This document shows, in pieces, positions 21,618 to 47,370 of a DNA stretch of 64,000 nt (position 1 is the first letter of the stretch; every line of letters begins with the position of its first letter). Origin of the DNA: an uncultured Algibacter sp. (GTDB taxonomy: Bacteria > Bacteroidota > Bacteroidia > Flavobacteriales > Flavobacteriaceae); contig CANMZT010000001.1 of NCBI GenBank assembly GCA_947502405.1, positions 310,001-374,000 on the forward strand. The letters are read 5' to 3'. Under the pieces are notes generated by a model. It was not told the DNA's origin. It saw only the letters and a list, made by a program, of their open reading frames with translations, and did no database searches. The translations under genes and the position numbers were made by a program.

Positions 21618-21641
21618 TAACCCCTGCTTTTGCAGGGGTTA
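21618..21641. terminator. Bidirectional terminator-like hairpin
   Basis: A perfect 10-bp stem TAACCCCTGC with loop TTTT lies 40 bases after the ATPase stop. The flanks are A/T-rich on both sides without a long T run. It would end the ATPase operon and could also end a leftward transcript from the promoter at 21884-21915. Confidence 0.7.
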
Positions 21642-21877
21642 TTTAGTTTGAATAATACTGAAATAAGCTCACTCAGCACATTTCCTTTAATTCCGTTGCT
21701 CTACATTACAGGAAAAGAGCTTCACTAACAGAAGTCTTGGATACAATTCCAAAGTTTTAGATTTCCACTTCGCTTAATCCTGACTAATCCCAAAACTTTG
21801 GGAGTAGGAACGCTATATTCCCAATATAAAACTTTGAAATAACGTCCGCTTAATAGGGAGAGATATCTATATCAATA
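21642..21877 (-). ncRNA. Candidate noncoding RNA, element I copy A
   Basis: No plausible ORF is present. The stretch 21674-21855 resembles 25962-26132 over its whole length (shared blocks such as CACATTTCCTT, AAAAGAGCTTCA, GTCTTGGA, GGAAC, AGTCCGC/CGTCCGC). At the same relative place each copy has a hairpin with an 8-base loop but a different stem: here CTA-a-TCCC/GGGA-g-TAG (21784-21807). That is the compensatory change expected of a structured RNA. A minus-strand promoter (21884-21915) would start transcription near 21877 and read towards the hairpin at 21618-21641, giving an RNA of roughly 240-260 bases. Family unknown. Confidence 0.45.
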
Positions 21878-22020
21878 TTGGTACAAAGATAAACTCGCAA
21901 AATATTCTCATCAAAAGACTACGGCATAAAGCCAACGCTTCGCCAACAACTCATTTATTCCGTTTCCTTTTGAGCAGAAATTTTGTCTTCCGTTTGGGTT
22001 CTGCAAAAATATTGTTTAAT
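21871..22020. repeat. Repeated leader element II, copy A (before parB)
   Basis: About 150 bases closely matching 23925-24074, with long identical blocks (CATCAAAAGACTACGGCATA, TTTATTCCGTTTCCTTTTGA, ATATTGTTTAATC). It contains a minus-strand promoter: TTTG (complement of 21912-21915), a 20-base spacer and TATCTTTG (complement of 21884-21891). Near its parB end an inverted repeat GCAGAA (21974-21979)/TTCTGC (21999-22004) could form a stem. It is probably both the leader of parB and the promoter of the leftward RNA. Confidence 0.65.
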
Positions 22021-22036
22021 CTAAAATTTAAGTATT

Positions 22037-23833
22037 ATGACAACAACAGCAAGTACTACAAGTAAAAACGGAAAGGCAAAAACCACCGTTAAAAATGAGG
22101 TCAAAAAGAAATTGACACAAAGCGCCATTGGACTTCAAGTTCAAGAGCTAAGTATTGGAAGGATTATCCCAGACCCAATGCAACCAAGAAAATCCTTTAA
22201 CGAGGAAGCACTTAAGCAACTATCTGAAAGCATCGAAGAACACGGTGTCCTACAACCAATTACAGTACGAAAATCTGGAAAAGATTACATCATTGTAATG
22301 GGAGAACGTAGGTATCGTGCAAGCAAATTAGCGAAAAAGAAAACAATTCCGAGTATCGTAAGGGAATATGATAATAATGATGTTTTGGAAATTCAAATTA
22401 TTGAAAATCTGCAAAGACAAGATGTTGAACCTACCGAAGAAGCCGAAGCGGTAGTATTCCTAAGCGAAAAATATTCGCCAAGGGAGATTTCAAAACGGTT
22501 GGGGAGAACAGAAAACTTTGTAAGGCAACGTTTAAAATTAGCAGGTCTAATTGAAGGTTTTAAAACATTTGTTCGTAATGGCGAAATGACTATTTCATTA
22601 GGAGTAGGTGTTGCGCTTTTCGAGCCAGAGGAACAGCAAATGATGCTGGAAACAATGGGAGAGAGTTTTAACACACATCAAATTAATCAGATGATTAAGA
22701 ACCAGACCTACGATTTGGAAAAAGCACCTTTTGATGTAATCGATGAAAAATTGATTACCAAAGTTGGTGCCTGTACAACATGTCCGTTCAACGCAATAAA
22801 TCAAGGTAATTTGTTTGGCGATGGCAAAATGGTATGTACAAAATCAGCCTGTTATGAAATGAAGAAAAGCAAGTCGTTTTTGAATTTGATTGAGAAATCG
22901 AAGAAAGAGAATGTGCTTTTGATTCCTGAAATTCGCAAGTATTGGGCTGATGACGACAACAATCAGCTTATTATATCGCAATTGGAACAAAACGGATTGA
23001 AAGTTTACCTTCTGGATGATGTTGAAATAATCGAAGAGCCAATTGAGCCTACAATAGAAGCAATTAAGACAGAATACCAACATTACGACTATTCTGAAGA
23101 GGAGCTAAAAACTGAACTAGAAGAAGCGATTGAGAATTACAAGGAAGAGTTGGAAACATATAATTACGCAAAGGAAAATGGATTTGTAGATGGTGTTATG
23201 TTTCATCCAAAAACGTACCTAAATAAAGTAATTTTTGTGAAGATAAAAGAAGATTCAAAAACGGAAAATTCTACATATTCTGAGCCGATAGCCAATAGAA
23301 AAATGGCCGATTGTACACCAGAAGAACAAATCGTGAAAATCAACGAAAGGGAAATCCGTAAAAGACACATTGAGCATAACAAGCAGTTTGAGGATATGGT
23401 TCAGATGATTCGTCAAACCGATTATATTGAAAAGAAGAAAGCGCTTTCGGTAGATGAGATGGTGGCTTTCTCATTAACCTTATTTGAAAATAATGTGGAC
23501 TATGTAGGTCGACAAAAACACTTTTCAAAATTATTAGGCAACACATCCAAGATGACTGATGTGGAAACTGTCGAGAATTTCAAAAAGAATTTCAAAAAGG
23601 AAACCTTTTATAAGTTGATTCGGTACATTCTTACCAAGCAAGTACATTTTGGCGAAAGCAATCATGTTAATAACCTGACAAACATTTCATTCTACAATGC
23701 GATGCAAGGGTATTATAAAACCAAAATTGCCAATATTGAAAAGGAATATGTAGAAGAGAGAAACAAGCGTGAAACACGTTTGAAAGAGCGAATAGGAAAT
23801 CTTGAAAAGAAAATTCAGGAATTAAACGATTAG
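22037..23833 (+). CDS. parB: ParB/RepB/Spo0J-family partition protein
   Basis: A 598-residue DNA-binding protein. Residues of about 35-125 form the ParB N-terminal domain (IIPDPMQPRKSFNEEALKQL, then GERRYRASKLA); an HTH follows (YSPREISKRLGRTENFVRQRLKL). Downstream are a Cys motif (ACTTCPFN...CTKSACYEMKK) seen in ParB-like proteins of Bacteroidetes elements, and a long acidic/helical region ending in a coiled coil. No ParA is in the window. It may help maintain the excised circular form or regulate transcription. It is preceded by element II copy A and followed by a terminator. Confidence 0.88.
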   Translation: MTTTASTTSKNGKAKTTVKNEVKKKLTQSAIGLQVQELSIGRIIPDPMQPRKSFNEEALKQLSESIEEHGVLQPITVRKSGKDYIIVMGERRYRASKLAKKKTIPSIVREYDNNDVLEIQIIENLQRQDVEPTEEAEAVVFLSEKYSPREISKRLGRTENFVRQRLKLAGLIEGFKTFVRNGEMTISLGVGVALFEPEEQQMMLETMGESFNTHQINQMIKNQTYDLEKAPFDVIDEKLITKVGACTTCPFNAINQGNLFGDGKMVCTKSACYEMKKSKSFLNLIEKSKKENVLLIPEIRKYWADDDNNQLIISQLEQNGLKVYLLDDVEIIEEPIEPTIEAIKTEYQHYDYSEEELKTELEEAIENYKEELETYNYAKENGFVDGVMFHPKTYLNKVIFVKIKEDSKTENSTYSEPIANRKMADCTPEEQIVKINEREIRKRHIEHNKQFEDMVQMIRQTDYIEKKKALSVDEMVAFSLTLFENNVDYVGRQKHFSKLLGNTSKMTDVETVENFKKNFKKETFYKLIRYILTKQVHFGESNHVNNLTNISFYNAMQGYYKTKIANIEKEYVEERNKRETRLKERIGNLEKKIQELND

Positions 23834-23850
23834 CTTTTGTTGTTGGAAGT

Positions 23851-23886
23851 AAGGGTCAGCATTCGTGCTGGCTCTTATTTTTTTTA
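23851..23886 (+). terminator. Terminator after parB
   Basis: An 11-bp stem (AAGGGTCAGCA paired with TGCTGGCTCTT, two G-T wobbles) capped by a TTCG tetraloop and followed by a run of T (ATTTTTTTTTA). A textbook intrinsic terminator 18 bases after the parB stop. Confidence 0.9.
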
Positions 23887-23924
23887 TATAGTATTCATGA
23901 AAATGGGTAAGTAGAAAGTATTCA

Positions 23925-24074
23925 ATCAATATCAGCGCAAAGGTAAACTCGTAAAATACACCCATCAAAAGACTACGGCATAAAGCCTACCCATCATCCA
24001 ACGCTTATTTATTCCGTTTCCTTTTGAGCTGTGATTTTAGCTTCCGTTTAGGTACTGCTCAAATATTGTTTAAT
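23925..24074. repeat. Repeated leader element II, copy B
   Basis: Second copy of the 150-base element at 21871-22020, here before the 53-codon gene at 24092. The minus-strand promoter is kept exactly in form: TTTG (complement of 23966-23969), 20-base spacer and TACCTTTG (complement of 23938-23945), with N positions changed but consensus bases kept. The terminal stem is also kept with different bases: TTTGAGC pairs with GCTCAAA. A leftward transcript from here would soon meet the parB terminator region. Confidence 0.65.
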
Positions 24075-24091
24075 CAAAAAATCTTAGAATT

Positions 24092-24253
24092 ATGAAACAA
24101 GTATCCGAAAAACCCGACACGACATTACAAGAAGCAGAAGAACATTATCAATTAAGTAGTGAAAAGTACGATGTAGATAGTGGAGAAAGTCATTTAGCGT
24201 ATTACAGAGATAAGCATCCTTCAAATTATCAAGTATTATTAGATAGTGTTTAA
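24092..24253 (+). CDS. Small acidic protein of unknown function (53 aa)
   Basis: An open frame starting MKQVSEKPDTTLQEAEEHYQ and ending QVLLDSV. It is strongly charged, has no Cys and no membrane segment, and looks helical. Support for being real: it starts 17 bases after element II copy B exactly as parB starts 16 bases after copy A, and it ends 16 bases before the next gene. The function is not recognised. Confidence 0.6.
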   Translation: MKQVSEKPDTTLQEAEEHYQLSSEKYDVDSGESHLAYYRDKHPSNYQVLLDSV

Positions 24254-24269
24254 TTTAAAATCTCACATC

Positions 24270-24815
24270 ATGGAAAATTTAAAAGTAGTTCAGTTCGATT
24301 TCGGTTTTGAACGTAAGCCGATATCAGCAAAAGATAAAGTTGTAAAACCAACTAAAAAGGATAAGAGTGATTTCGTTTTCGATTTTATGGATTGTCTTGC
24401 AAGTCCAATCATAGTTTTTAAATCTGCATGGCAAGATACTATACCAAAAGATATACTTGGTAGAATCAAATTATCACGAATCATTTGCTCAATGACAGGA
24501 GATAAAATGGCATCACTTACAGAGACTTTAGCCTATATGATGCCAAGAACTTATGAAGCACCCATGCAGACAGAATGGGCAAACATTTATACATGGCTAG
24601 GACTTCAATATGCAATGCAGACCAAAAGTAAAGACCAATTAGAAGCTATGATTGAAATAGCACCAAAAGAACTGTCTGATTATGAAAAAGGACTCTTAAA
24701 AAACCTGAGACTATGGATTTATGATAAACGAAGAAAAGCTCTAAAAGGTATTTTGAAAAAGAATAAAGTTTCAAAAGAAGATGGTATTTTAGATATTCAA
24801 GAGAAGCTGTTTTAA
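24270..24815 (+). CDS. Conserved-looking element protein of unknown function (181 aa)
   Basis: The ATG at 24270 is chosen (MENLKVVQFDFGFERKPIS); the frame runs up to a GTG at 24246, which would overlap the small gene. The protein is soluble and mixed alpha, with a Lys-rich stretch near residues 20-35 and a central part rich in aromatic residues (YMMPRTYEAPMQTEWANIYTWLGLQY). I see no known motif. The place between parB and ssb suggests an element-maintenance role, but nothing in the sequence shows this. Confidence 0.7.
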   Translation: MENLKVVQFDFGFERKPISAKDKVVKPTKKDKSDFVFDFMDCLASPIIVFKSAWQDTIPKDILGRIKLSRIICSMTGDKMASLTETLAYMMPRTYEAPMQTEWANIYTWLGLQYAMQTKSKDQLEAMIEIAPKELSDYEKGLLKNLRLWIYDKRRKALKGILKKNKVSKEDGILDIQEKLF

Positions 24816-24900
24816 TAATAAACATTTTCAATAAAAGTCATTTTATCTCTGCTTTTTTTACGTTATAACATTATATTTATAATTCATAGAACAGTTCGAA

Positions 24901-25785
24901 ATGTTGACATATCATGGACTTATAGAATTAAGGGACAAACTCGCAAATAACGAGATTGGGCTAGAACTTGCAAAAGAAAAATGTTGGAGTGACTTCAAAG
25001 AAGGACAACGGTCTTGGCATACAAAAGATTGGAAGGATAGAAGGTCAAAATTCATTAAAGAAAAATGCGAAATATGTAGTAGTAAAGAAACATTAACGAT
25101 ACAGCATCTTTCCCACCCAAAAAAATATTCAGAATTTAAAAGAGAAATAATAAGAACTTATGCGAAGGATTACATAAACACTAATCCAAACATTGATAAA
25201 TCTGAATTTACTGCTCATATTCTAAAAAAATATGAATATGTCCCAATTCCTTTGTGCCCAAATTGTATGTGTAAAAATCCCAGCGAAAGGGTAAGGAAAA
25301 TTCCAAAATATCGTTGTGCGGATTGTAAGCACGAATTTGAAGAAGCGATTTATAGGTCGGAAATCGAACTTATTTCTATTTTTTATCAGGATGAGGATGC
25401 ATATGAAGTTCGAGATAAGTGTTTTATTTCAAAAGATAAATGGAGAAACAAACACAACCTATCAAATATTCGGTATTGGTTGCAAAGAGAATTAGCAAAA
25501 AATAAAGATTCTGAAACGATTGAAAAAAAGGCTTTTTTACTTTATTTAAGCGACAACATTAAGTATCTGTCCTTTGAAGATACAATAACGGCTTGCAAAA
25601 AATGTGCATCTAGTTTTGACTTACACAAAATGGAATTATGCCCCAAATGTAAAAAACATTATAAAGGCATTCAATATCCAACTTGTATACAATGTTTGCC
25701 AGAAGAAAAACGAAAAGCTGCGATGGAAAAAATTGAATTTGGTAAAGAATGGCAGGATATGCATAAAAGACTTGGAATAGACTAA
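24901..25785 (+). CDS. Zinc-ribbon protein with HNH-like CxxC...QHLSHP region, function unknown
   Basis: A 294-residue cytoplasmic protein. At about 57-75, CEICSSKETLTIQHLSHP looks like the start of a treble-clef/HNH-like fold, though a full HNH triad is not evident. A second metal site follows (CPNCMC...YRCADCKHEF, about 119-147). The C-terminal 60 residues carry a third and fourth (CKKC...CPKCKKHYKG...CIQC). Such stacked zinc ribbons suggest nucleic-acid binding. It is monocistronic, with an 85-base AT-rich gap upstream and a long noncoding region downstream. Confidence 0.7.
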   Translation: MLTYHGLIELRDKLANNEIGLELAKEKCWSDFKEGQRSWHTKDWKDRRSKFIKEKCEICSSKETLTIQHLSHPKKYSEFKREIIRTYAKDYINTNPNIDKSEFTAHILKKYEYVPIPLCPNCMCKNPSERVRKIPKYRCADCKHEFEEAIYRSEIELISIFYQDEDAYEVRDKCFISKDKWRNKHNLSNIRYWLQRELAKNKDSETIEKKAFLLYLSDNIKYLSFEDTITACKKCASSFDLHKMELCPKCKKHYKGIQYPTCIQCLPEEKRKAAMEKIEFGKEWQDMHKRLGID

Positions 25786-25961
25786 TATTGGAAGTAATAA
25801 AACGAGCAGCTAAGTCGTATAAAATTAATTGCTAGTACAAACCTACTTACGAAATTCCTCGCAAATTTTTTATTCGGTTTTTTGATTTGCTAAACCATCC
25901 AACTAATTATACAAACAAGCTGTTTGAAATAACCAGTAGAAATCAATTTTTATATCCCATT
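25786..25961. other. Noncoding AT-rich stretch before element I copy C
   Basis: No ORF with a credible start. The only structure noted is a short hairpin CAAACA-AGC-TGTTTG at 25912-25926. Confidence 0.5.
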
Positions 25962-26132
25962 CAACACATTTCCTTCCATTCCGTAAAAACTGCATTCCAG
26001 AAAAAGAGCTTCATTAACAAAGGTCTTGGACATAATCCACACTTTTGACTTTTCATTCCGTTAACCCTTTCCGATTCTCTGGAAAGGAACACTTCATTAC
26101 AAGTAAAAAGCGCGAATCAAGTCCGCCAAATA
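25962..26132 (-). ncRNA. Candidate noncoding RNA, element I copy C
   Basis: Full-length relative of 21674-21855 with no ORF. The conserved hairpin here is CCTTTCC-GATTCTCT-GGAAAGG (26066-26087), again with an 8-base loop but wholly different stem bases from copy A. A weak minus-strand promoter may lie to the right (ATTCTTTG complementary to 26183-26190 with TTGG 19 bases upstream), in the same relative place as the strong promoter of copy A. The orientation is inferred from copy A. Confidence 0.4.
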
Positions 26133-26249
26133 AGTAAAAATGTATTTGCATTTTGTTCCACTTCCTATGATTTTGTATTTCACAAAGAATTTAGAATCAC
26201 TTCCGTAATCCAACACCGTCATACCTTTTTTTGACAGCAAAATAACAAC

Positions 26250-26319
26250 ATTCAGCTTTGAACGACAGCATAATCAGGCTCGTGCCTCGCACTTTTTATA
26301 TGTCTAAACAAAGCTGAAT
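26250..26319. repeat. Long-loop inverted repeat with nested hairpin
   Basis: ATTCAGCTTTG (26250-26260) and CAAAGCTGAAT (26309-26319) are perfect 11-bp inverted repeats around 48 bases. The loop contains AGGC-TCGT-GCCT. It could be a structured RNA or a replication or transfer site; nothing decides between these. Confidence 0.45.
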
Positions 26320-26364
26320 ATCGAAAGCACTAAGCAACAAAAAGAAGGTAACAGCGTCGGCTCT

Positions 26365-26499
26365 ATGGGAAGTAAATCTAAAATGAATCTTATGAAATCT
26401 TACAAAATCAATAAAAAGGAAGCGGAACAAAAGTTAAAAAAACAAAAAAAGGAAAACGCTCTGGATATAATAAGTAAATCAATAACAAAGCCTTTCTGA
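26365..26499 (+). CDS. Possible small basic protein (44 aa)
   Basis: An open frame MGSKSKMNLMKSYKINKKEAE... ending ITKPF, very Lys-rich. It ends 42 bases before ssb. No ribosome-binding or homology evidence; it may be chance in an A-rich stretch. Confidence 0.25.
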   Translation: MGSKSKMNLMKSYKINKKEAEQKLKKQKKENALDIISKSITKPF

Positions 26500-26541: not shown

Positions 26542-26895
26542 ATGAGTACTCTAAGAAACAAAGTACAGTTAATTGGCAACGTGGGAAACGAGCCAGAAAT
26601 CACAAACCTTGAAAGTGGAAAGAAAGTTGCGAAATTTTCAATCGCTACAAATGAATCTTATAAGGATTCTAAAGGCGAAAAAGTGACAAACACCCAATGG
26701 CACAATATTGTAGCATGGGGAAAGATTGCCGAAATCGTAGAGAAATATGTTGGCAAAGGAAAAGAAGTAGCACTTGAAGGCAAATTAACCTCACGCTCTT
26801 ATGAAACTAAAGAGGGAGAAAAAAGATACGTTACCGAAGTGGTCGTAGATGAAATTCTTCTTTTAGGAATTAAAGGCGATAACGCTACGGAATAA
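26542..26895 (+). CDS. ssb: Single-stranded DNA-binding protein
   Basis: A 117-residue OB-fold protein. The N-terminal MSTLRNKVQLIGNVGNEPEI, KVAKFSIATNESYKD, WHNIVAWGKIAEIVEKYVGKG and EGKLTSRSYETKEGEKRYVTEVV pattern is classic for SSB. It is short and lacks the acidic DDDIPF tail of chromosomal SSBs, as is common for element-encoded copies. It probably coats single-stranded DNA during transfer or element replication. It is followed by a terminator. Confidence 0.95.
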   Translation: MSTLRNKVQLIGNVGNEPEITNLESGKKVAKFSIATNESYKDSKGEKVTNTQWHNIVAWGKIAEIVEKYVGKGKEVALEGKLTSRSYETKEGEKRYVTEVVVDEILLLGIKGDNATE

Positions 26896-27763: not shown

Positions 27764-27961
27764 GTCCAGCGAGCTGGACGAAAAGGAATAGCAAGAGGGT
27801 AACACGCTAGCGCGATGTTATATATATTGATTTGATATTCAATTCATTGAATATCAGTTGTTTATTTGGTTTTTGAACACTTATTTGAATGGCTCTGTTC
27901 CAAAAAGTTTATTGAAAACCATGCGAAAAACACCGAAAACATTGAAAAAGTTTATTGAAAA
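27764..27961 (+). other. Candidate origin of transfer (oriT)
   Basis: Just upstream of the mobilisation genes lie three inverted repeats in under 100 bases: GTCCAGC-GA-GCTGGAC (27764-27779), TAACA...TGTTA around the palindrome CGCTAGCG (27800-27820), and GATATTCAA-TTCA-TTGAATATC (27834-27855). Two 17-base direct repeats (AAAAAGTTTATTGAAAA at 27902-27918 and 27945-27961) follow, the second touching the bfmA start. This mix, plus location, fits an oriT with relaxosome-binding repeats. The nick site cannot be placed. Confidence 0.6.
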
Positions 27962-28357
27962 ATGAAAGTTAAGGACAAATATGAATACGACTATTTAGCA
28001 ATCAATTTAAAGCGCCATGTAGTAAAGCGTTTTCGTAAACTATCAAAAAAATTTGCTAAACCACAATCGGAAACTTTGGATGCCATGGTCGATTTTTTTG
28101 AATGGCACGGGTTCTCGCCATTTGATAAAAAAGAACCAAGTCTTTTGATTGAACTATTAAAGAATCGTAAACGTACTGAAGCAGTAATTGCCATTATAAA
28201 AGACATTGAAAAGAACCATGATAAACCGACAACTGCAATGTTGCAATCTTTATTTATGGAGTTTGAACCAAAGAAAGAAAAATTGATTTTAGAGAAAGAG
28301 GTCAAAGAGAAGGAAGTACTATTTGTAGAAAAAAATGATTCAAATAATCAATTATAA
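27962..28357 (+). CDS. BfmA/BtgA-family mobilisation protein
   Basis: A 131-residue basic protein likely to bind oriT and recruit the relaxase. LKRHVVKRFRKLSKKFAKPQSETLDAMVDFFEWHGFSP is the ribbon-helix-helix-like part typical of BfmA/BtgA. The C-terminal half is a charged helix. It is followed four bases later by the relaxase start and preceded directly by the direct repeats of the candidate oriT. Confidence 0.85.
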   Translation: MKVKDKYEYDYLAINLKRHVVKRFRKLSKKFAKPQSETLDAMVDFFEWHGFSPFDKKEPSLLIELLKNRKRTEAVIAIIKDIEKNHDKPTTAMLQSLFMEFEPKKEKLILEKEVKEKEVLFVEKNDSNNQL

Positions 28358-28361
28358 TATT

Positions 28362-29390
28362 ATGTATATTACAATTACAGCTCAAAAATTAGGAGGAGAT
28401 TATTCACAAAGTTCTGCGAATTTTGCTGAGTATCTGGAGAAGGAAAATCAAGGTTTGGAGCAAGAAGATGTGGAACATTTTTTTAATCAATATGGAGATG
28501 AAATTGACGCCAAAGAAGTGGTAAAAGAAATCGATGGCAATACTGCAAAACTCAAAAAGAAAGAACCTAAATTTTATTCAATTACAGTTAGTCCTAGTAA
28601 ATATGAATTGAGAGAATTACAGAATAATTCTGAAGATTTAAAGAAATATACCAGAGCCATAATGAACGATTATGCAACGTCCTTCAATCGAGAAATTAAT
28701 GGTAAACCGATAACCGTTGACGACATAAAATATTTTGCGAAAATTGAGCATCAAAGAACATTCAAAGGCACAGATAAACAGGTAAAAGAAAACCAACCTT
28801 TTGCCACTAAAATACTTCAACTAAAAACCGACATTCGGAAAATTGAACAAGGTCAATTAGAAGGCAATATCAAAAAAATGAAATCTCAAATAATTAAACT
28901 CGAAGTGGAAGCACCACACCAACAAAATGGAAAACGGATTGTTCAAGGGATGAAAAAATCAGGCAATCAAAGTCATATTCATATTATCGTAAGCCGAAAA
29001 GACGCATCAAATTCTGTGAGTTTATCGCCAGGATCTAAACACAAAGCTTCAGAAGTTGAGATGCATGGTAAAATTGTAAAACGTGGATTCGACAGAGATG
29101 CATTTTTTACAAAAGCAGAAAGCACGTTTGATAAAACCTTTGGCTATAAACGCAACTATGCAGAATCCTATAAATCGAAGAAAGATTTTATTAAAAATCC
29201 AAAGCTGTACTTCACAACATTATTAGGATTGCCAGCAAGTGAAAAAGCTATAGCATTTAAAATGCTTGCAAAATCTGGAGTACCTATTGCGAGTATTCCA
29301 ACTAATCAAGTGCAGTTAGCACTTAAAACCATAAGATATTTAAAACGTGGTATAGACGTGGCAATTAAATCAGGTTCAATAGGTATATAA
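28362..29390 (+). CDS. Relaxase/mobilisation protein (MobB, DUF5712-like)
   Basis: Expected to nick oriT and lead the strand to the recipient. The start at 28362 (MYITITAQKLGGDYSQ) is chosen; the frame runs up to 28335 but would overlap bfmA. The region SHIHIIVSRKDASN carries the His-x-His metal site expected of relaxases, and a Tyr-containing N-terminal segment (FAEYLEKE) follows the first strand. At 342 residues it matches the Bacteroides BtgB/BfmB type. The stop abuts the coupling protein gene. Confidence 0.85.
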   Translation: MYITITAQKLGGDYSQSSANFAEYLEKENQGLEQEDVEHFFNQYGDEIDAKEVVKEIDGNTAKLKKKEPKFYSITVSPSKYELRELQNNSEDLKKYTRAIMNDYATSFNREINGKPITVDDIKYFAKIEHQRTFKGTDKQVKENQPFATKILQLKTDIRKIEQGQLEGNIKKMKSQIIKLEVEAPHQQNGKRIVQGMKKSGNQSHIHIIVSRKDASNSVSLSPGSKHKASEVEMHGKIVKRGFDRDAFFTKAESTFDKTFGYKRNYAESYKSKKDFIKNPKLYFTTLLGLPASEKAIAFKMLAKSGVPIASIPTNQVQLALKTIRYLKRGIDVAIKSGSIGI

Positions 29391-31044: not shown

Positions 31045-32433
31045 ATGACCAAAACCAATCGTATAGAATACAAACAAGAACTTACCGAAGGATTAGAAAA
31101 AGAAGTCATTGCTTTTTTGAACTATCGTGAAGGTGGAATTATTTATATAGGTATAGATAAAATAGGTAAAACCTATGGTTTGGCAGATTCTGATGGCGAC
31201 CAATTAAAGATAAAGGATCGGTTGAAGAACAATATTAAACCATCGGCATTAGGATTATTTGATATTGTTAGTGAAGAACGAGAGGGCAAGAATATCATAA
31301 AGATCATAGTGGCAAGTGGATCAGAAAAACCATATCATATAAGAAAATATGGTATGAGTGAAAAGGGTTGCTTTATCCGTATTGGAACTGCTGCAGAACC
31401 CATGCCTCAAAAAATGATTGATACGCTGTTTTCTAAACGTACTAGAAATTCAATCAGTAAAATTAAAGCAGTTACCCAAGACTTAACGTTTAGCCAACTG
31501 AAAATCTATTATGAAGAATCTGGTTATAAATTAGGTAATGCGTTTGCTGAAAATTTAGAATTACTTACAGAAGATGGTGCATATAATTATGCAGCTTATC
31601 TATTAGCTGACAAGAATAACACGTCCATTAAAGTGGCTAAATATTCTGGAAAAACCCGAACAGATTTAATAGAAAGTAATGAATTTGGTAACGAGTGTTT
31701 GGCTAAGGCGACCAAACAAGTGATAGACAAGATTGCGGTAGAAAATAGAACAAATACGAAAATCACTTCAAAAGAACGAAAACAAAACCATCTTTGGAAT
31801 CCTATTGCGCTTCGTGAAGCTATCATCAATGCTTTTGTACATAATGATTATACCAATGAAGTACCACCCAAGTTTGAAATTTTCGCAGATAGAATTGAGA
31901 TTACATCTGCTGGAGGTCTGCCTGAAGGATTGAGCAAGCAAGAATTTTTTGAAGGGTTTTCTGTTCCGAGAAATAAAGAGCTCATGCGAATTTTTAAGGA
32001 TTTGGAATTAGTGGAACAATTAGGTTCTGGTATTCCACGTATTTTAGATCATTATGGTAAAGAGAGTTTTAGTTTTTCTGAAAATTTCCTAAGAATGACT
32101 TTTGTTACTAAAGAAACTACTGCTGAAGTTGATGCTAAAGTAGATAAAGAAGAAGGTGGTCAAATAGGTGGTCAAGAAGGTGGTCAAATAGGTGGTCAAA
32201 TAGATGAAGAAATAAATAACAAAATAGATGCTGTAGAAGAATTAACTCTTAGACAAAAAGAAATTCTTAAAATGATAGCATCTGATAATAGAATAAGTCG
32301 TTCTGGTATTGCGGAAGTTCTACATATTAACGAATCTGCCATTCAAAAACACCTTAATAATCTCAAAGAAAAAGGCTATTTAGAGCGTATTGGTGGAACT
32401 AGAGGTTATTGGGAAATAAATTTAGCGAAATAG
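31045..32433 (+). CDS. AlbA_2/ATPase-like regulator with C-terminal winged helix
   Basis: A 462-residue protein. The N-terminal RIEYKQELTEGLEKEVIAFLNYREGGIIYIGID is the AlbA_2 (Schlafen-like) domain; a central HATPase_c_4-like part follows (LREAIINAFVHNDYTNEVPPKFEIFADRIEITSAGGLP). After a Gly/Gln hinge encoded by four 12-bp repeats (32155-32202), a winged helix ends the protein (LTLRQKEILKMIASDNRISRSGIAEVL). Such proteins are usually called transcriptional regulators, and AlbA_2 proteins also occur in defence loci. It directly precedes the type III restriction-modification genes and may regulate them. Confidence 0.82.
   Translation: MTKTNRIEYKQELTEGLEKEVIAFLNYREGGIIYIGIDKIGKTYGLADSDGDQLKIKDRLKNNIKPSALGLFDIVSEEREGKNIIKIIVASGSEKPYHIRKYGMSEKGCFIRIGTAAEPMPQKMIDTLFSKRTRNSISKIKAVTQDLTFSQLKIYYEESGYKLGNAFAENLELLTEDGAYNYAAYLLADKNNTSIKVAKYSGKTRTDLIESNEFGNECLAKATKQVIDKIAVENRTNTKITSKERKQNHLWNPIALREAIINAFVHNDYTNEVPPKFEIFADRIEITSAGGLPEGLSKQEFFEGFSVPRNKELMRIFKDLELVEQLGSGIPRILDHYGKESFSFSENFLRMTFVTKETTAEVDAKVDKEEGGQIGGQEGGQIGGQIDEEINNKIDAVEELTLRQKEILKMIASDNRISRSGIAEVLHINESAIQKHLNNLKEKGYLERIGGTRGYWEINLAK
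32155..32202 (+). repeat. Four tandem 12-bp repeats inside the AlbA_2 gene
   Basis: GGTGGTCAAATA repeated four times (the second copy has GAA for the last ATA), encoding GGQI/GGQE. The unit is a multiple of three, so slippage would change hinge length without shifting the frame. Confidence 0.9.
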
Positions 32434-32551
32434 AAAGAGCTTAAGTAAAACAACTTTTGATTGACACAGCAACATTATTACAATTATCCTCAATCATCTT
32501 TTTGCAACGTGAAATTATAACAATATCTTTAGCACTTATTTTTACCACTAA

Positions 32552-34531
32552 ATGATAGAATTAAGCCAAAGAGAAAAAGACTATTTAATAGAAAAATTAC
32601 AAAAAGGCGAGCAATTGCCTGATGACTTCAAGTATAAGCTATTTCCTACCACTCAAAAGGAATACGAGCTCGTTTATGCTGGTAAAATGCGTAAGGAAGA
32701 TATTCTTGCAGATGAAGATGGTGTAACTGCTGCACCTTTACAAATTGAAAGAACTTATAATGGCGACCGTGAATCTTATCCTGACGGCTGGAAAAATATG
32801 ATTGTATTTGGCGACAACCTTCAATTTCTCAAAACCATTTACAAAAATGAAGACCCACTCATAAAAGATAAGGTTAAGGGAAAGGTAAAATTAATTTACA
32901 TAGATCCACCATTTGCTACCGCCTCTGATTTTAGTGGTTCTGAGGGTCAAAAGGCATATTCTGATAAAACTAAAGATGCTGAATTTGTTGAATTTTTGCG
33001 TAAAAGGCTTATAGTAGCGAGAGAAATTCTTGCAACAGATGGTAGCATTATGGTTCATCTTGATTATAAGAAAGTACATTATATCAAGGTATTAATGGAT
33101 GAAGTCTTTGGAGAAAGGAATTTGCGTAATGAGATAATTTGGCAACGAACAACAAATACAGGAAGTAGTAAAGCCAGAGCGAGAAAATTTAGTGCGGATA
33201 CTGATACAATTCTTTATTACTCAAAATCCTCAGAATTTCAATTCAATAAATTATTCCGTGAGTATTCAGAAAAATATTTAAAACGATTTAAGTATAAAGA
33301 TAAAAGAGGGTACTACCGCTGGTCAGCACTTAAGACGTATTCACAGGAAAAATATGAATATCTCAAAAAAGAGGATATGCTCAGATGGAGCGACGGTTCT
33401 AAGTATCCAGAACTGAAACAATATTTAAAAAAGTCTAAAGGTGTTCCGATGAATAACTTATGGGCAGATATTAATCACGTAAACCCTATGGCAAAAGAAA
33501 GGGTTGGTTATCCAACTCAAAAGCCCGAAAGACTTATTCAAAGGATAATTGAAGCAACAACTTTTGAGGGCGATTTGGTTTTAGATTTCTTTGCAGGAAG
33601 TGCTACTACATCGGCGGTTGCTGAAAAATTAAATCGTAAATGGATAAGTTGTGATATTGGTAAGTTTAGCTTCTATACAGCTCAAAAACGGATTTTGACT
33701 TTGGAAACTACAAATTCTTTAGTTGAGGAAAATGAAAGTCATAAGGGGAAGGCTAAAGCTTTTATAACTGTAAATACAGGTTTTTATGATATCGAAAAAC
33801 TCTTTTCACTACAACATAAAGAATATCAAGATTTCGTATTAAATCTTTTTGAGGTAAGCCCAAAATCTAAGAAGATTGCGGGAATAGAATTCCAAGGCGA
33901 GCGTAAGGATGGATATGACGTTTTGATATGGAAATATTGGGAGCATAAAGACGCAGCAGTTGATGAAGATTATTTGGAAATTCTTCACAAAAATATTGGT
34001 AAAAAAATTGGCGACCGTATCTATATTATTGCGCCAGCGAATTCTGTACAATTTATTGATGATTATTATGAGATAGGAAATGTACGTTACTATTTTCTAA
34101 AAGTACCTTATCAAATCATACAAGAATTGCATAAGGAGAAATTCAAGAAATTCAGGCAACCTAAAAGTTCGAGCAATGTCAATTCACTTGAAAATGCAGT
34201 TGGTTTTCATTTCATTAGACAACCGGAAGTCAAGTCTTCGTTTGATAATGGTGTCATTACAATAGAGGCTTTCAAAGCCTACTACCCTGATGAAGATACC
34301 TTGGAGGATATTCCTGGTCTGGAAGCCTTGGCAATGGTGGTAGTAGATAAAGACTACAACGGCAAAGAGTTTTTAATGTCCGATGTATTTTTTGCTGCTG
34401 ATATTGTTGACGAGGATAGTCAAGCTAAGGTTTCCATAGAAGATTGTGGCTCTAAAGTAAGTGCAGTATATATCGATATTTATGGCAATGAATTCCGCGA
34501 GGTATTTACCAATAAAAATACCAAGGGATGA
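32552..34531 (+). CDS. mod: Type III restriction-modification methyltransferase subunit
   Basis: A 659-residue beta-class amino-methyltransferase. The catalytic motif DPPF (118-121, a variant of DPPY) precedes the variable target-recognition region, and the SAM motif DFFAGSATT (from 345) comes afterwards, the order expected of the beta class. KPERLIQRIIEATTFEGDLVLDFF is typical of type III Mod. It defines the DNA target for itself and for Res. Its stop overlaps the res start (ATGA), so the two are translationally coupled. Confidence 0.92.
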   Translation: MIELSQREKDYLIEKLQKGEQLPDDFKYKLFPTTQKEYELVYAGKMRKEDILADEDGVTAAPLQIERTYNGDRESYPDGWKNMIVFGDNLQFLKTIYKNEDPLIKDKVKGKVKLIYIDPPFATASDFSGSEGQKAYSDKTKDAEFVEFLRKRLIVAREILATDGSIMVHLDYKKVHYIKVLMDEVFGERNLRNEIIWQRTTNTGSSKARARKFSADTDTILYYSKSSEFQFNKLFREYSEKYLKRFKYKDKRGYYRWSALKTYSQEKYEYLKKEDMLRWSDGSKYPELKQYLKKSKGVPMNNLWADINHVNPMAKERVGYPTQKPERLIQRIIEATTFEGDLVLDFFAGSATTSAVAEKLNRKWISCDIGKFSFYTAQKRILTLETTNSLVEENESHKGKAKAFITVNTGFYDIEKLFSLQHKEYQDFVLNLFEVSPKSKKIAGIEFQGERKDGYDVLIWKYWEHKDAAVDEDYLEILHKNIGKKIGDRIYIIAPANSVQFIDDYYEIGNVRYYFLKVPYQIIQELHKEKFKKFRQPKSSSNVNSLENAVGFHFIRQPEVKSSFDNGVITIEAFKAYYPDEDTLEDIPGLEALAMVVVDKDYNGKEFLMSDVFFAADIVDEDSQAKVSIEDCGSKVSAVYIDIYGNEFREVFTNKNTKG

Positions 34532-37113
34532 TTCAGGAAAAAAAGAGATACGATACAAAAGATTTAATTTTAAAAGTAAATCAATTTTATAACCAAAGCG
34601 AACTACCACTTCCGTATTGGGATAGGTTTTTGGATGCCCTTTGTGGAACAAGGGAGTATCAAAAGGAAGCCATAAAAAGTTCAGTAATTTACTTGGCATC
34701 CAAAGAGTATACCAACATTCAAGACTTAGTTTCTAAAAATCACTACCAAAATCCTCAATTACGAGAAAGATATCCCGAGCTTGAGGATTACCACCGTAAG
34801 CTACAATTGCCTTCAAAGTTATCTGCAACAATAGACCTTGCTACAGGAACGGGGAAAAGTTATGTTATGTATGGCATAGCGCAAATTTTATTGGGATTAG
34901 GCTTGGTTAAAAGAGTACTTATTTTGTGTCCATCAACGACAATTGAAAAAGAACTGCATAAGAAGTTTTTAGCATTAGTTTCTGACCCAATTCTAAAAGA
35001 AACAATTCCGCCATCCGCAATAATTAAAAACCCGAGTATTGTTGATGGAAGTGTTACCGTGGACGAAGGTGCCATTTGTATTGAAAATGTCCACGCTGTT
35101 TATGAACGAACAGGTTCATCAATTGAAGATAGTTTTGGTTTCAAAAGAGGTTTTGACACGGTAGTTTTGAATGATGAAACCCATCACATTTATAATAAGA
35201 TTTCTGGTAATACTACAGAGGCTAGAGGGTTAAAAATATGGAAGAAGTTTTTATTGGACGATGGTTATAATTTTAAATATATGCTTGGTTTTACAGGTAC
35301 AGCATATATAGGAAATGATTACTTCAATGACGTTATTTACAGATACTCTTTACGAGAAGCTGTTGATGAAAAATTTGTTAAGAAGATTAATTATGTTTCA
35401 GAGGATGATAGTATAAACGAAGACCAAAGATTCCAGAAAATATATCAGAACCATAGCAATAATAAAGTCACTTACAAAAATGTAAAACCCTTAACAATTC
35501 TGGTAACAAACAATATTACCAATGCCAAAAGACTCGAAACGAGATTGGTTGAGTTTTTAATGCTGGAAGAAGGTTTAGAAGAACAAGAAGTTCGGGATAA
35601 GCTGGTTATGACGGTAACTTCAGATAAGGTACATAAGCATAATGTTATTCGTTTGGAGGAAGTTGATATGCAGGATTCAACTGTAGAATGGATTGTATCA
35701 GTTTCAATGCTTACTGAGGGATGGGATGTTAAGAATGTATTCCAAATAGTCCCTATGGAAGAGAGAGCTTTTAATTCAAAATTATTGATTTCTCAGGTTT
35801 TGGGTAGAGGTCTAAGAGTACCGCCTGAATATATAAATAATGCAGAAGTTACAATATTTAATCATTCATCTTGGGGCTCAAAAATTAAAGGATTGGTAGA
35901 TGAAGTACTGGAGTTAGAAATGCGATTGGAGAGTTCTAACTTAATTGATGGAGATAGAAGTAAATTTCATTTTGAACTCTACAATATAGATTACAACAAA
36001 ATTGAAAAAGCAGTAGAAAATAATAGTAAAGAGAAAGAGTTTAATTATAAAGGCATTATAACTTTAGAATCTTCAGTAGACCAAGTAAGTCAGGAAACAA
36101 CATATACCAACCTTGCAAGTGATTATAAGAGTGTAGAGTACAAGATTAAAAACAGAATGACACCAATTAAGGAAATCGTTGATAAAATCTATCACGAGTT
36201 TCAGACGAGAGAATGGGAAGGTGTTACACTCAATTTACAAGAAGGTCAGTACACAAAAAACAAACTTCCGCCCAAAGAAGAGATTACAAAGTTGATAAGG
36301 CGTTCAATGGATAAGGTTGGTCTCGAAGGGTATGAATTGAATGAAAAGAATAAACGAAATATTTTTTCTTCATTTAACACGCTTCTAAGACGAAAAAATA
36401 AATCACTTGAGTTAGTTAGAATAGCTCAAAAGCCATTTGTTATCTCAACCAAAGAGAGAATAAAGGAAACATTATCAGTAGGTAATTTAAGGCATAATTC
36501 TACAGTTATGTATTCTAATAACTATAATGAGGAAGTTAAAGATACGGATGTTTTAAACTTTTTACAAGATGTAATCGATGATGAGTCATTACCTCGAACA
36601 GCCATAAAACAGGCAAATAGTTATGATTTTAAAACGCCAGTTGATTTAGCTTTTCTTAACGCTACACCTGAAAGGAAATTTGCTGAAAAACTAGTTAAAA
36701 ATGAAAATGCTAATGCATTAGATTCTTGGCTAAAATCTACTAATCAAAGTTTTTATACAATTGAATATTCACTATCAAGTAAATCTGGTAATCATACAAA
36801 GCAAGGCAAATTTAATCCTGACTTTTTTATTAAAACCTCTGATAAGGAGATGGAATATATTACTGTTGTCGAAATTAAAGACGACCAAGATTATTCAGAC
36901 TTAAATAAGGCAAAATTTAAATGGGCAACTATTCATTTTCAGGAACTAAATAAGCAACTGGAAGAAAATAAAATCCAGCAACGATATAATTTTCATTTTT
37001 TAAGCCCTGAGAATTATGATGATTTTTTTGAATATTTGAGAAATGGTAAGCTTGTTCAAGGCTTATTTACAAGTAACTTAGATAAAGAATTGGATAACAA
37101 CAACTCGAACTAA
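34528..37113 (+). CDS. res: Type III restriction enzyme Res subunit (helicase-nuclease)
   Basis: An 861-residue ATP-dependent restriction subunit. Walker A ATGTGKS (105-111), DETHH box (216-220), helicase region LTEGWDVKNVFQIVP and QVLGRGLRVP, and a C-terminal PD-(D/E)xK nuclease (PD at 764-765, ExK at 782-784) are all present, so it looks intact. The N-terminal part contacts Mod. Together with mod it would cut foreign DNA lacking methylation. It converges with the minus-strand tra block with only 22 bases between. Confidence 0.92.
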   Translation: MIQEKKRYDTKDLILKVNQFYNQSELPLPYWDRFLDALCGTREYQKEAIKSSVIYLASKEYTNIQDLVSKNHYQNPQLRERYPELEDYHRKLQLPSKLSATIDLATGTGKSYVMYGIAQILLGLGLVKRVLILCPSTTIEKELHKKFLALVSDPILKETIPPSAIIKNPSIVDGSVTVDEGAICIENVHAVYERTGSSIEDSFGFKRGFDTVVLNDETHHIYNKISGNTTEARGLKIWKKFLLDDGYNFKYMLGFTGTAYIGNDYFNDVIYRYSLREAVDEKFVKKINYVSEDDSINEDQRFQKIYQNHSNNKVTYKNVKPLTILVTNNITNAKRLETRLVEFLMLEEGLEEQEVRDKLVMTVTSDKVHKHNVIRLEEVDMQDSTVEWIVSVSMLTEGWDVKNVFQIVPMEERAFNSKLLISQVLGRGLRVPPEYINNAEVTIFNHSSWGSKIKGLVDEVLELEMRLESSNLIDGDRSKFHFELYNIDYNKIEKAVENNSKEKEFNYKGIITLESSVDQVSQETTYTNLASDYKSVEYKIKNRMTPIKEIVDKIYHEFQTREWEGVTLNLQEGQYTKNKLPPKEEITKLIRRSMDKVGLEGYELNEKNKRNIFSSFNTLLRRKNKSLELVRIAQKPFVISTKERIKETLSVGNLRHNSTVMYSNNYNEEVKDTDVLNFLQDVIDDESLPRTAIKQANSYDFKTPVDLAFLNATPERKFAEKLVKNENANALDSWLKSTNQSFYTIEYSLSSKSGNHTKQGKFNPDFFIKTSDKEMEYITVVEIKDDQDYSDLNKAKFKWATIHFQELNKQLEENKIQQRYNFHFLSPENYDDFFEYLRNGKLVQGLFTSNLDKELDNNNSN

Positions 37114-45317: not shown

Positions 45318-46304
45318 ATGCAAGATCAACCAAGACTCAAAATATTGTCCATAGATGGAGGAGGAATCAAAGGTGTTTTTCCTGCTAAATTTTTAGCCTT
45401 GCTTGAAGAAGAAATAGGAGAAGGACAAATACACAAGCACTTTGATATTATAACTGGTACTTCAACAGGAGGTATAATAGCTTTAGCTCTTTCATTAGGC
45501 ATTCCAGCAAAAAAAATTCTTGAACTTTATAAAGACAATGCACACACTATTTTTGGAAAAAAGAGATGTAATATTTTTAGACGAGCATTTTATAGTAATA
45601 AACCGTTGGAAGCCCTTTTAAAAGATATATTCAAGGAATATCATAACAAAGACGAACATCCCAGAATAGATGATGCAAAAACAAAACTGCTAATTCCTAT
45701 TTATAGCTTAACTGATGGTTCAACGCAAGTTCTTAAAACACCACATGCATCAGATTTAATTTTAGATAAGCATATACCTATGTATATGGCGGCAATGGCA
45801 ACATCTGCAGCACCTACTTTTTTTAATCCTTATTCAAATAATTTTAAAAAAATTGATTCTACAACGGTTGAGAGTTTTACCAATAAAGTAGATGGCGGTG
45901 TTTATGCTAATAATCCAAGCATGATTGCACTTATAGAAGCACAAACTAGATTAGAAAGAGAGCTTTCCGAAATAGATTTACTTTCATTAGGAACAGGGCA
46001 AAAAATATTTTCCAATGCCAAGAAGAAAAAAAGATGGCAAGTTTTTTATTGGATTTGGAAAAAAAGAATTATCGAATTGTTTATGCAAAGTCAGTCACAA
46101 ATAGTTCATAATTCTATTTCTGTATTGAATAATTTTAATAACGATTTTAATTATCATAGAATTGATTTGGAGTTTGATGAAAACTTTAAAGTTGCCATGG
46201 ATGAAAAAAACGCAAATAAATTGGAGGCTTTAGCAGAGCGAGCAACCAGAGAATATCAAAAAAATTGTAAAGATGTATTGGATACCTATTTTGGCAATAG
46301 GTAG
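45318..46304 (+). CDS. capV: Patatin-like phospholipase, CapV-type CBASS effector
   Basis: A 328-residue lipase. Oxyanion-hole motif DGGGIKG (13-19), nucleophile elbow GTSTG with Ser49 and catalytic Asp192 in DGGVYANNP are all intact. CapV proteins are activated by cyclic dinucleotides (3',3'-cGAMP in characterised systems) and degrade the cell's own membrane, aborting phage infection. It is the first gene of a four-gene + strand block with a CD-NTase, an E2-like protein and an AbiV-like protein. Confidence 0.9.
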   Translation: MQDQPRLKILSIDGGGIKGVFPAKFLALLEEEIGEGQIHKHFDIITGTSTGGIIALALSLGIPAKKILELYKDNAHTIFGKKRCNIFRRAFYSNKPLEALLKDIFKEYHNKDEHPRIDDAKTKLLIPIYSLTDGSTQVLKTPHASDLILDKHIPMYMAAMATSAAPTFFNPYSNNFKKIDSTTVESFTNKVDGGVYANNPSMIALIEAQTRLERELSEIDLLSLGTGQKIFSNAKKKKRWQVFYWIWKKRIIELFMQSQSQIVHNSISVLNNFNNDFNYHRIDLEFDENFKVAMDEKNANKLEALAERATREYQKNCKDVLDTYFGNR

Positions 46305-46359
46305 TTACCTATTACTCAAAAACACTAATGAAAAGAAACCTAGAAAAAAAACTTATAAT

Positions 46360-47370
46360 ATGGCAAACTGTAATAAACTTTTTAAAGACTACAATGGTAA
46401 TTTAACAATCAAGTCGGCAAAAAAAGACCGTCTGAAGGAGTCAAAAAGAGTATTAAGAGATAGAATTAGAAAGTATTTCAAAGATAATCATCCAGAGTAT
46501 GTGCCTGAGTTTTATATTCAAGGTAGTTACAAAATGAAAACTACTATTGTAACGAAAGATGATGATTGTGATTTAGATGATGGTGTCTATTTTAAAAGAG
46601 AAGTAGGAGTAACTGGTACAACACTTCAAAAATGGGTTAAAGAAGCAGTAATTGATGCTACTTCCGCCGACCCTCAACATAGAAAAAGATGTGTTAGGGT
46701 TATTTATGCAGCAGATTATCATATTGATTTTCCAGTTTACTATTTTCAAGAAGATTGGGAGCATCCTCGTTTAGCAGTTAAAGATGAGGAATTACAAGAG
46801 AGTGATCCAAAAGAGGTTATTGATTGGTTCGCTAGTGCTAAAGATGGGAATGGTCAATTAGTGAGAGTAGTAAAGTTTTTAAAGGGTTGGGGAGATTTCA
46901 AAAGAAATAAAATGCCAAGTGGCCTAGCTATGTGCATATTGGCTGAAAAAAATATTAAATATAACGATAGAGATGACATTTCGATAAAAGAGACATTAGA
47001 AGCTATTAAGACGACATTAAACGATAGTTTTGAATGTATTGTTCCAGGAACACCATATGATGATTTATTTTCAGAGTACGATGATTCCAGAAAAAATAAT
47101 TTTCTTTCAAATCTTGACGACTTTATCGAAGATGCTACAAAAGCAGTTGAAGATGAGCCTAATCAGTTAAAATCAAGTAAACTATGGAGGAAACACTTTG
47201 GAGATAAGTTTCCATTAGGAGCAGATGAAGATGTTGACGCTAAAGAAAAAGCATTACTAGCTCAATCAGCAAGTATTCTATCAGGTACTGCGCATACAAA
47301 AAGAGATGGGTCAATAAGTGATTCAGGAAGTGTGAAAAATAAACCGCATACTAATTATGGCGGGAAGTAA
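46360..47370 (+). CDS. DncV-like CD-NTase (CBASS cyclic dinucleotide synthase)
   Basis: A 336-residue nucleotidyltransferase. The start at 46360 (MANCNKLFKDYNGN) is preferred over 46273, which would overlap the patatin gene and add a hydrophobic leader foreign to the family. Catalytic features: GS at 55-56, DLD (Asp71, Asp73) in DCDLDDGVYF, and a third Asp (123) in YHIDFPVYYF. The DLDDG pattern is that of DncV, so 3',3'-cGAMP is a reasonable guess for the product. The last residues overlap the E2 gene; the C-terminal tail (NYGGK) could be a target for E2-mediated conjugation. Confidence 0.92.
   Translation: MANCNKLFKDYNGNLTIKSAKKDRLKESKRVLRDRIRKYFKDNHPEYVPEFYIQGSYKMKTTIVTKDDDCDLDDGVYFKREVGVTGTTLQKWVKEAVIDATSADPQHRKRCVRVIYAADYHIDFPVYYFQEDWEHPRLAVKDEELQESDPKEVIDWFASAKDGNGQLVRVVKFLKGWGDFKRNKMPSGLAMCILAEKNIKYNDRDDISIKETLEAIKTTLNDSFECIVPGTPYDDLFSEYDDSRKNNFLSNLDDFIEDATKAVEDEPNQLKSSKLWRKHFGDKFPLGADEDVDAKEKALLAQSASILSGTAHTKRDGSISDSGSVKNKPHTNYGGK

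Follow-up and report, generated by a model that had tools for sequence, protein, structure and literature searches.

What is selected in the two related noncoding blocks that lie beside a parB-like gene and upstream of ssb in a mobile element of an uncultured Algibacter sp. (Flavobacteriaceae), and do they act as RNA or as DNA? The 64,000-nt stretch in question (GenBank assembly GCA_947502405.1, contig CANMZT010000001.1, positions 310,001 to 374,000), hereafter the window, is an integrative and conjugative element (ICE) with a TraG-type ATPase, TraM, RteC, a tyrosine integrase, a BfmA/BtgA-family MobA and a MobB-family relaxase; matches to a TraK-like protein and to a MobC-like coupling protein fell below their cut-offs. 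We use EL as a working name for the repeated block, the ~180-nt element I of a preliminary description, and T1, T2 and T3 for its companion modules. We find that EL is a conserved, strand-specific, covarying minus-strand secondary structure belonging to the ICE. We propose, with a probability of roughly 0.6, that these leading-region elements fold as single-stranded DNA (ssDNA), with T3 and perhaps T1 serving as promoters like the Frpo elements of plasmids and EL as their conserved partner.

The two blocks resemble each other over 65 nt at 75% and 27 nt at 85% identity, and blastn of copy A against the genome recovers copy B (E 2.8e-12). As the preliminary description had it, no listed open reading frame (ORF) of at least 80 aa overlaps either block, and both carry, by eye, a hairpin with an 8-base loop. 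Each of these hairpins is the apex of a longer rod. On the minus strand, homologues from relatives show that EL folds into two arms: arm 1, a long rod, is closed by GGAC/GUCC, contains recurring 3x3 internal loops and has the hairpin noted earlier at its tip, and arm 2 is AGCuCuUUUCC/GGGAAuGuGCU. The terminal loop of arm 2 holds additional palindromic inserts in different copies (L021:384-595, L025:198-415, L013:1971-2183).

The pairing is kept while the sequence changes, as the preliminary description had expected. From 21 extracted copies, alignment A1 used 15, omitting the near duplicates L005 and L031 and the divergent L013:1469, L018, L019 and L027, and A3 used 14, omitting L028 as well. 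Among 14 copies aligned with MAFFT, 88.4% of cells were paired (slid controls, 35-53%), with compensatory change in 17 of 48 pairs. For a larger sample, 80 fetched loci and the window, 81 sources in all, gave 128 EL matches and 122 distinct rows (alignment A5), which were fitted to the covariance model. Here 92.6% of 5746 pair cells were paired, compared with 34-57% in slid controls, and 39 of the 48 pairs showed compensatory change; several of our alignments are partly model-fitted in this way, and the related copies counted are not independent events. In our own tree-based simulation, a two-set test, 9 of the 48 EL pairs reached E<=0.05 as against 0 of 15177 other pairs, and slid controls gave 0-1 pairs. 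The stricter all-pairs cut-off left 3 of 48. Of the 48 best-scoring column pairs, 9 were annotated and 14 lay within one column of an annotated pair.

The structural strand of EL is minus, as G.T cells number 716 and A.C cells 71, and a plus-strand alignment of EL yielded no pairs at all. The plus strand was therefore rejected as the structural strand, on this alignment, on consensus energies and on the strand of the wobble pairs. Single-copy folds are less striking than the aligned copies: the RNA fold z was -0.69 (minus) and -1.52 (plus) for copy A, and -3.71 and -1.68 for copy B. Rfam returned no matches in the window at gathering score, and a search of 15 loci gave six matches at E<=3, none of them on an element. 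On these searches we rejected a known RNA family as the identity of EL, in line with the statement that no named family fits.

A second repeat, 21871-22026/23925-24080 (156 nt), adjoins copy A and constitutes the structured element T3. The preliminary description had placed a minus-strand promoter by copy A. The promoter, TTTG-N20-TATCTTTG at 21915-21884, is present, but it belongs to the T3 hairpin and not to EL. The consensus energy of 45 aligned T3 copies is -53.9 on minus versus -48.1 on plus. In 32 of these copies (alignment A6, from which rows more than 95% alike had been removed) 95.2% of cells are paired, compared with 41-47% in slid controls, and 40 cells have changed on both sides as against 13.2 in shuffles; the number of pairs with two-sided change, 7 versus 5.2, is unexceptional. 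In four copies the stem CAAAAG/CUUUUG has been swapped for GGAAAG or GGGAAG with CUUUUCC.

The 3' arm of T3 carries the boxes. Flavobacterial promoter motifs have been described as TAnnTTTG (sigmaA) and TAnnTTGY (SM5) (PMC9723704). Such a -7 box stands at one column, in a consensus-unpaired stretch, in 38 of 45 copies (TAnnTTTG in 27, TAnnTTGY in 11), and TTTG lies exactly 20 nt upstream in 40. The complete arrangement was found on the minus strand of 37/45 copies and on the plus strand of 0/45, and in 38 of 9000 dinucleotide shuffles. Two other columns hold -7 boxes in 12 and 6 of the 45 copies. The distance from T3 to the gene behind it is nearly constant, with 13-17 nt to the next ATG in 47 of 60 places, 58 of which have an ORF. 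These places were taken by hand from 83 model matches, with duplicates, antisense matches and one cut-off match omitted (L252, L255, L257 and L256:4107 left out, L256:6810 added), and the rule used, the first ATG with at least 50 codons, chose a spurious ORF in at least L251. The genes behind T3 include ParB, the 53-aa family, DUF932, a 135-aa family, RadC and others.

Does EL itself give rise to a discrete small RNA (sRNA), as had been predicted? We looked within 150 nt 5' of 95 distinct non-tandem copies for a full promoter, defined as TTTG-N18-22-(TAnnTTTG or TAnnTTGY), and found it in 8; like copy A, 7 of these are T3 units. Counting -7 boxes whether or not they are part of a full promoter, 41 of the 95 have one within that distance, 27 of them T1. 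Among 95 distinct terminal copies, a terminator-like hairpin occurred once in EL's own direction and ten times in the opposite one. The hairpin at 21619-21640, taken earlier as the terminator of the copy A RNA, has its T-rich stretch on the plus strand and hence suits the preceding gene. With promoters and terminators this scarce, a discrete sRNA was discarded as a general account of EL.

Between EL and ssb there are often rods of ~300 nt, which we divided into T1 and T2. The 70 EL-to-gene intervals comprise 34 T1, 32 T2 and four at ParB; T2 is defined by one word, and T1 takes in the other ssb intervals shorter than 500 nt. Consensus energies favor minus over plus for both (T1, -172.6 versus -122.0; T2, -238.9 versus -183.8), and in EL, T1, T2 and T3 alike the ratio of G.T to A.C cells on the minus strand is 8 to 17:1. 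Besides the conserved -7 box column of its 3' arm, T1 has a further one, in 14/34 copies, that lies inside ssb. No column of T1, T2 or T3 has an exact plus-strand box in more than one sequence. T2 units (e.g. L098, L141), likewise ~300 nt long, show covariation in 11/163 pairs, and no promoter box could be recognised in them. A 44-aa ORF lies in the 5' arm of T1, and since all 16 T1 units listed, of 34, have a related ORF (KSK..KSYK..KKEA-like), a portion of the rod may be coding as well.

Which strand would enter a recipient? As a sample not chosen by EL, we fetched named loci by the relaxase protein alone and kept the best 80 of 204 relatives found. EL was found in 76 of these 80 loci, and the remaining four have less than 2.3 kb of the relevant flank. 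All but one of 109 EL hits lie upstream of the relaxase gene and on the opposite strand, the nearest copy being 2.0-3.7 kb from the relaxase start; the sole exception has an E of 0.0094. T3 is equally polar: in the relaxase loci and the window it occurs in 40 of 81 sources, and all 75 places are on minus, on the ssb/parB side of the relaxase. The sequence covered was 703831 bases on that side and 789964 on the other, yet T3 is one-sided. EL lies within 150 nt of T3 in only 10 of the 75 places. An oriT-like block upstream of mobA reads TAGCGTG/TTACCC on minus, with a nick predicted between 27803 and 27802. Its core AGCGTGTTA, a nick-like AGCGTG/TTA site, occurs within 1200 nt of the relaxase start on the minus strand of 75/80 loci and on the plus strand of none, and it resembles the MOBV nick sites 5'-TAGTGTG/TTA and 5'-TAGTGCG/TTA reported in PMC5090054. 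By this nick-like site, minus is the probable transferred strand (T-strand). The site and the one-sided placement of EL relative to the relaxase argue for EL as folded T-strand DNA rather than an sRNA.

EL accompanies this relaxase family widely. With at most six candidates scored per genome, the covariance model detected EL in 114 of 397 sampled genomes of the family. Both EL and the relaxase family PF18976 were present in 92 genomes, EL only in 22 and the relaxase only in 18 (Fisher, 8.9e-50); thus 22 of the 114 EL genomes lack PF18976, and 18 of the 110 PF18976 genomes lack EL. Among 395 genomes of the phylum, EL was found in 10, eight of the same family and two others: G592 (E 6.6e-31), of a different family in the class, and G507, a weak match (E 7.2e-6). 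The next gene 5' of EL is divergent for 120 of the 128 copies and is ssb for 91. In the same set 23 copies sit less than 60 nt behind another copy, and tandem pairs have a near-constant linker of ~32 nt, which leaves integron-like cassette arrays unsupported. Plasmid and phage searches gave almost no matches: blastn of 72,556 plasmids found nothing with copy B and, with copy A plus T3a, only one partial match, of an Aquimarina plasmid to 62 bases of T3.

Of the 395 genomes of the phylum, 19 had a match to the T3 model; in 11 the genome lay outside the family and the match was weak (E 1.4e-6 to 9.6e-4). We fetched the loci of nine of these 11 and of one weak family hit. A RadC-like gene stands behind T3 in 5 of the 10 (L249, L250, L251, L253, L256), and stem sequences differ in several. 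By eye, an exact box is at the T3 place in L249 (TAATTTGT), L251 (TACCTTTG) and L253 (TAGATTTG), and also in L248 (TAACTTTG), there before a DUF6934 gene; L250 (TAAATTGG) and L256 (GAACTTTG) have no exact box at that place. On another contig of the Algibacter genome itself (G000:C10:9361-11524; L245, L247), T3 has two matches without EL, one strong and the other weaker, possibly marking a second related element.

How might such structures work on the incoming strand? Were the nick made at the predicted site, the minus strand would enter first and the plus-strand genes would be templated by it; the first ~6.1 kb to arrive would hold ssb, EL copy B, T3b, parB, T3a and EL copy A. In double-stranded DNA (dsDNA) the boxes of T3 and T1 are directed away from the gene. 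Once the T-strand folds, the box-bearing 3' arm would pair with the 5' arm and leave the -7 box unpaired, with the 3' arm as non-template and the 5' arm as template, so that transcription would exit the hairpin base into the gene. With the 5' flank as template, RNA polymerase would then meet the start codon 20-29 nt on. For T3a the predicted start is near 22008-22014, which puts 23-29 nt of leader before the parB ATG (22037); for T1, which has less support than T3 as a single-strand promoter, it is near 26336-26345, before the 44-aa ORF at 26365 and then ssb. The parB-like gene and ssb could thereby be expressed ahead of second-strand synthesis. EL would be a separate T-strand structure serving single-strand processing, for example second-strand initiation or SSB exclusion.

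The closest known parallel is Frpo, the T-strand hairpins of F and its relatives whose -10/-35 boxes drive ssb and further leading genes in recipients (PMC9849209, PMC11541004). According to these papers, the Frpo/ssi elements of F, ColIb-P9 and related plasmids lie in the leading region before ssb and further early genes, in more than one copy, and rebuild their -35/-10 boxes in a T-strand hairpin. We compared our elements with the features that define Frpo. The minus strand folds stably as DNA, with z scores of -2.29, -2.36 and -6.41 for T3a, T3b and the interval 25945-26440 (T1 with EL copy B); the plus strand folds too (-2.25, -1.34 and -5.26). Boxes that the fold would direct at the gene are conserved in T3 (37/45), for the -7 box only in T1 (27/34), and not in T2. 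The position would be that of a leading region, since the elements keep to a single strand and to the ssb/parB side of the relaxase (EL 108/109, T3 75/75), the leading side being assigned by analogy. The boxes differ, TTGACA/TATAAT there and TTTG with TAnnTTTG/TAnnTTGY here, the ICE has the additional conserved structure EL, and the plasmid blastn with copy B and with copy A plus T3a revealed no sequence homology to known Frpo/ssi elements, its one partial match being that to the Aquimarina plasmid. Our claim is therefore that T3 would work in the manner of Frpo, and not that it counts as a Frpo. Enterobacterial plasmids are known to have single-strand promoters, and here a like function may be served with Bacteroidota boxes. 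The Frpo survey in PMC11541004 used BLAST to five known sequences and an E. coli consensus, and its main text does not contain the string 'bacteroid'; a literature search of partial coverage found no paper on single-strand promoters in Bacteroidota. Another related system is sso1 of ICEBs1, a T-strand single-strand origin of an ICE reported to aid second-strand synthesis and stable acquisition (PMC4595007).

Several observations weigh against this proposal. Plus-strand DNA folds as well as minus for T3a (z -2.25 versus -2.29) and nearly as well for T1 with EL copy B (-5.26 versus -6.41), and T3 is close to a palindrome: its antisense reaches 35-38 bits with the T3 model, so that weak T3 hits alone do not prove strand. 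Tree-aware covariation is modest in T3 (3 of 43 pairs) and in T1 (3 of 125, plus two unannotated pairs), with slid controls at 0-1 in each. Seven of 45 T3 copies have neither box type and five lack TTTG; by eye, T1 has no TTTG at a proper distance from its box; and T2, which makes up 32 of the 66 aligned units, has no conserved box, its best column reaching 5/32 inside ssb. With one mismatch allowed, a scan gave T1 columns of plus-strand candidates in 11 and in 9 of 34 units, and T2 such a column in 10 of 32. We looked for a promoter in EL and found none, and EL copies before other genes adjoin what look, by eye, like the ordinary promoters of those genes. The wobble bias of EL, T1, T2 and T3 is what RNA would show, and we used it for strand only. 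Finally, the leading side is assigned from the nick-like site by its likeness to MOBV sites: the T preceding AGCGTG is missing in most loci (TAGCGTGTTACCC in 21/80), and MobB has no PDB relative by sequence.

An RNA from EL is possible, and one could suppose that EL encodes a minus-strand noncoding RNA of the ICE that acts in trans on transfer or establishment; transcription would begin at the T3 box for copy A and at the T1 box for copy B. Consistent with such an RNA are the 39 of 48 pairs with compensatory change, the recurring 3x3 internal loops, the RNA-like wobble bias, the consensus promoter before copy A and the -7 box within 150 nt of 41/95 copies. It also has a precedent in SGI1, whose self-encoded sgm-sRNA, shown by deletion and Northern analysis, is likewise a structured noncoding element close to oriT and conserved across its element family, and is needed for mobilization (PMC9299015). 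EL, however, differs from the sgm-sRNA in having no general promoter and terminator: besides the 8/95 and 1/95 counts, the 31 T2-linked copies have no full promoter and a single -7 box. The wobble bias was dropped as proof of RNA because T1, T2 and T3 share it and because a minus transcript started at the boxes of T1 or T3 would not include their 5' arms, which nevertheless pair with the 3' arms. An EL RNA leaves these arms and the T-strand polarity unexplained, and we consider it unlikely.

Two further explanations concern the plus strand and the double-stranded site. The structures might be cis-regulatory leader RNAs of ssb, parB and the neighboring genes, which they directly precede, T3 at 13-17 nt from the start codon in 47/60 places; the plus strand folds too, and loose plus-strand promoter candidates turn up in roughly one in three T1 and T2 units. 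This reading is the least probable of those considered here, given that the plus-strand EL alignment holds no pairs, that consensus energies of T1, T2 and T3 favor minus, that the wobble pairs are on minus, and that no exact plus-strand box is conserved in T1, T2 or T3. Alternatively, the repeats might be protein-binding or replication sites in dsDNA, such as parS-like or oriV-like sites or cruciforms. The adjacent parB-like gene and ssb, the CATTCC-like words repeated by eye and the tandem copies with ~32-nt linkers would suit such sites, but covariation preserves pairing and not sequence, and a tenfold difference between G.T and A.C is unexpected for a double-stranded site, which makes this account very improbable.

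Table 1. Positions in the window of EL, its companion modules and the neighboring genes
Feature	Position	Strand	Evidence
EL copy A (element I)	21666..21853	-	cmsearch R1 142.3 bits; covariation
T3a promoter-like hairpin, before parB	21871..22021	-	R2 175.1 bits; DNA fold z -2.29 minus, -2.25 plus
T3a -7 box TATCTTTG, 3' arm	21884..21891	-	box column shared by 38/45 T3 copies
T3a TTTG (-33 element), 20 nt from box	21912..21915	-	TTTG at N20 in 40/45 T3 copies
parB-like gene, ATG 15 nt past T3a end	22037..23833	+	Pfam ParB_N 1.8e-30
T3b promoter-like hairpin, before 53-aa gene	23925..24075	-	R2 178.6 bits; DNA fold z -2.36 minus, -1.34 plus
T3b -7 box TACCTTTG	23938..23945	-	conserved T3 box column
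53-aa gene, ATG 16 nt past T3b end	24092..24253	+	no Pfam match
EL copy B, upstream of ssb	25954..26130	-	cmsearch R1 187.7 bits; RNA fold z -3.71 (minus)
T1 rod, between EL copy B and ssb	26151..26432	-	consensus structure of 34 intervals
T1 box TATTTTGC (TAnnTTGY), 3' arm	26237..26244	-	7-nt unpaired stretch; one column, 27/34 T1 copies
44-aa small ORF, ~20-29 nt past T1-implied start	26365..26499	+	no Pfam match
ssb	26542..26895	+	Pfam SSB 6.8e-35
oriT-like block	27764..27819	.	conserved in alignment of 64 non-redundant loci, upstream of mobA
BfmA/BtgA-family mobilization protein (MobA)	27962..28357	+	NCBIfam NF041200 3.1e-24
MobB-family relaxase (DUF5712)	28335..29390	+	NCBIfam NF041495 6e-124; Pfam PF18976

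The ICE also carries cargo. Left of parB (578-21577) lie metal-resistance genes for a multicopper oxidase, heavy-metal P-type ATPases and CusA/CusB-like efflux. Just past the coupling protein, 31045-37113 encodes an AlbA_2/Schlafen-type protein, an N6/N4 DNA methylase and a type III-like restriction helicase, the last with a TnsA-like C-terminal match below cut-off; this is probably restriction-modification cargo. At 45318-47370 a patatin-like phospholipase adjoins a DncV-like cyclase, probably a pair of the cyclic-oligonucleotide-based antiphage signaling system (CBASS). Beside it, 47856-48587 encodes an AbiV-type HEPN protein by Pfam, for which PADLOC returned no match.

A wider proposal, which we advance tentatively and would put a little short of even odds, is that Bacteroidota ICEs possess their own, independently evolved programme of T-strand entry, built from the covarying ssDNA classes T1, T2, T3 and EL. 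T3 would be a single-strand promoter that keeps a nearly constant distance to the genes behind it, parB, DUF932 and radC among them, and EL would be a new structured ssDNA element selected for its fold as DNA, not RNA. If the elements work in this way, early expression from incoming ssDNA would be a more general solution in conjugation, reached through unrelated sequences, and one could predict which genes these ICEs express early, and in what order. With EL in 114 of 397 genomes of the family, these elements also offer a large covarying set in which selection on ssDNA structure may be studied.

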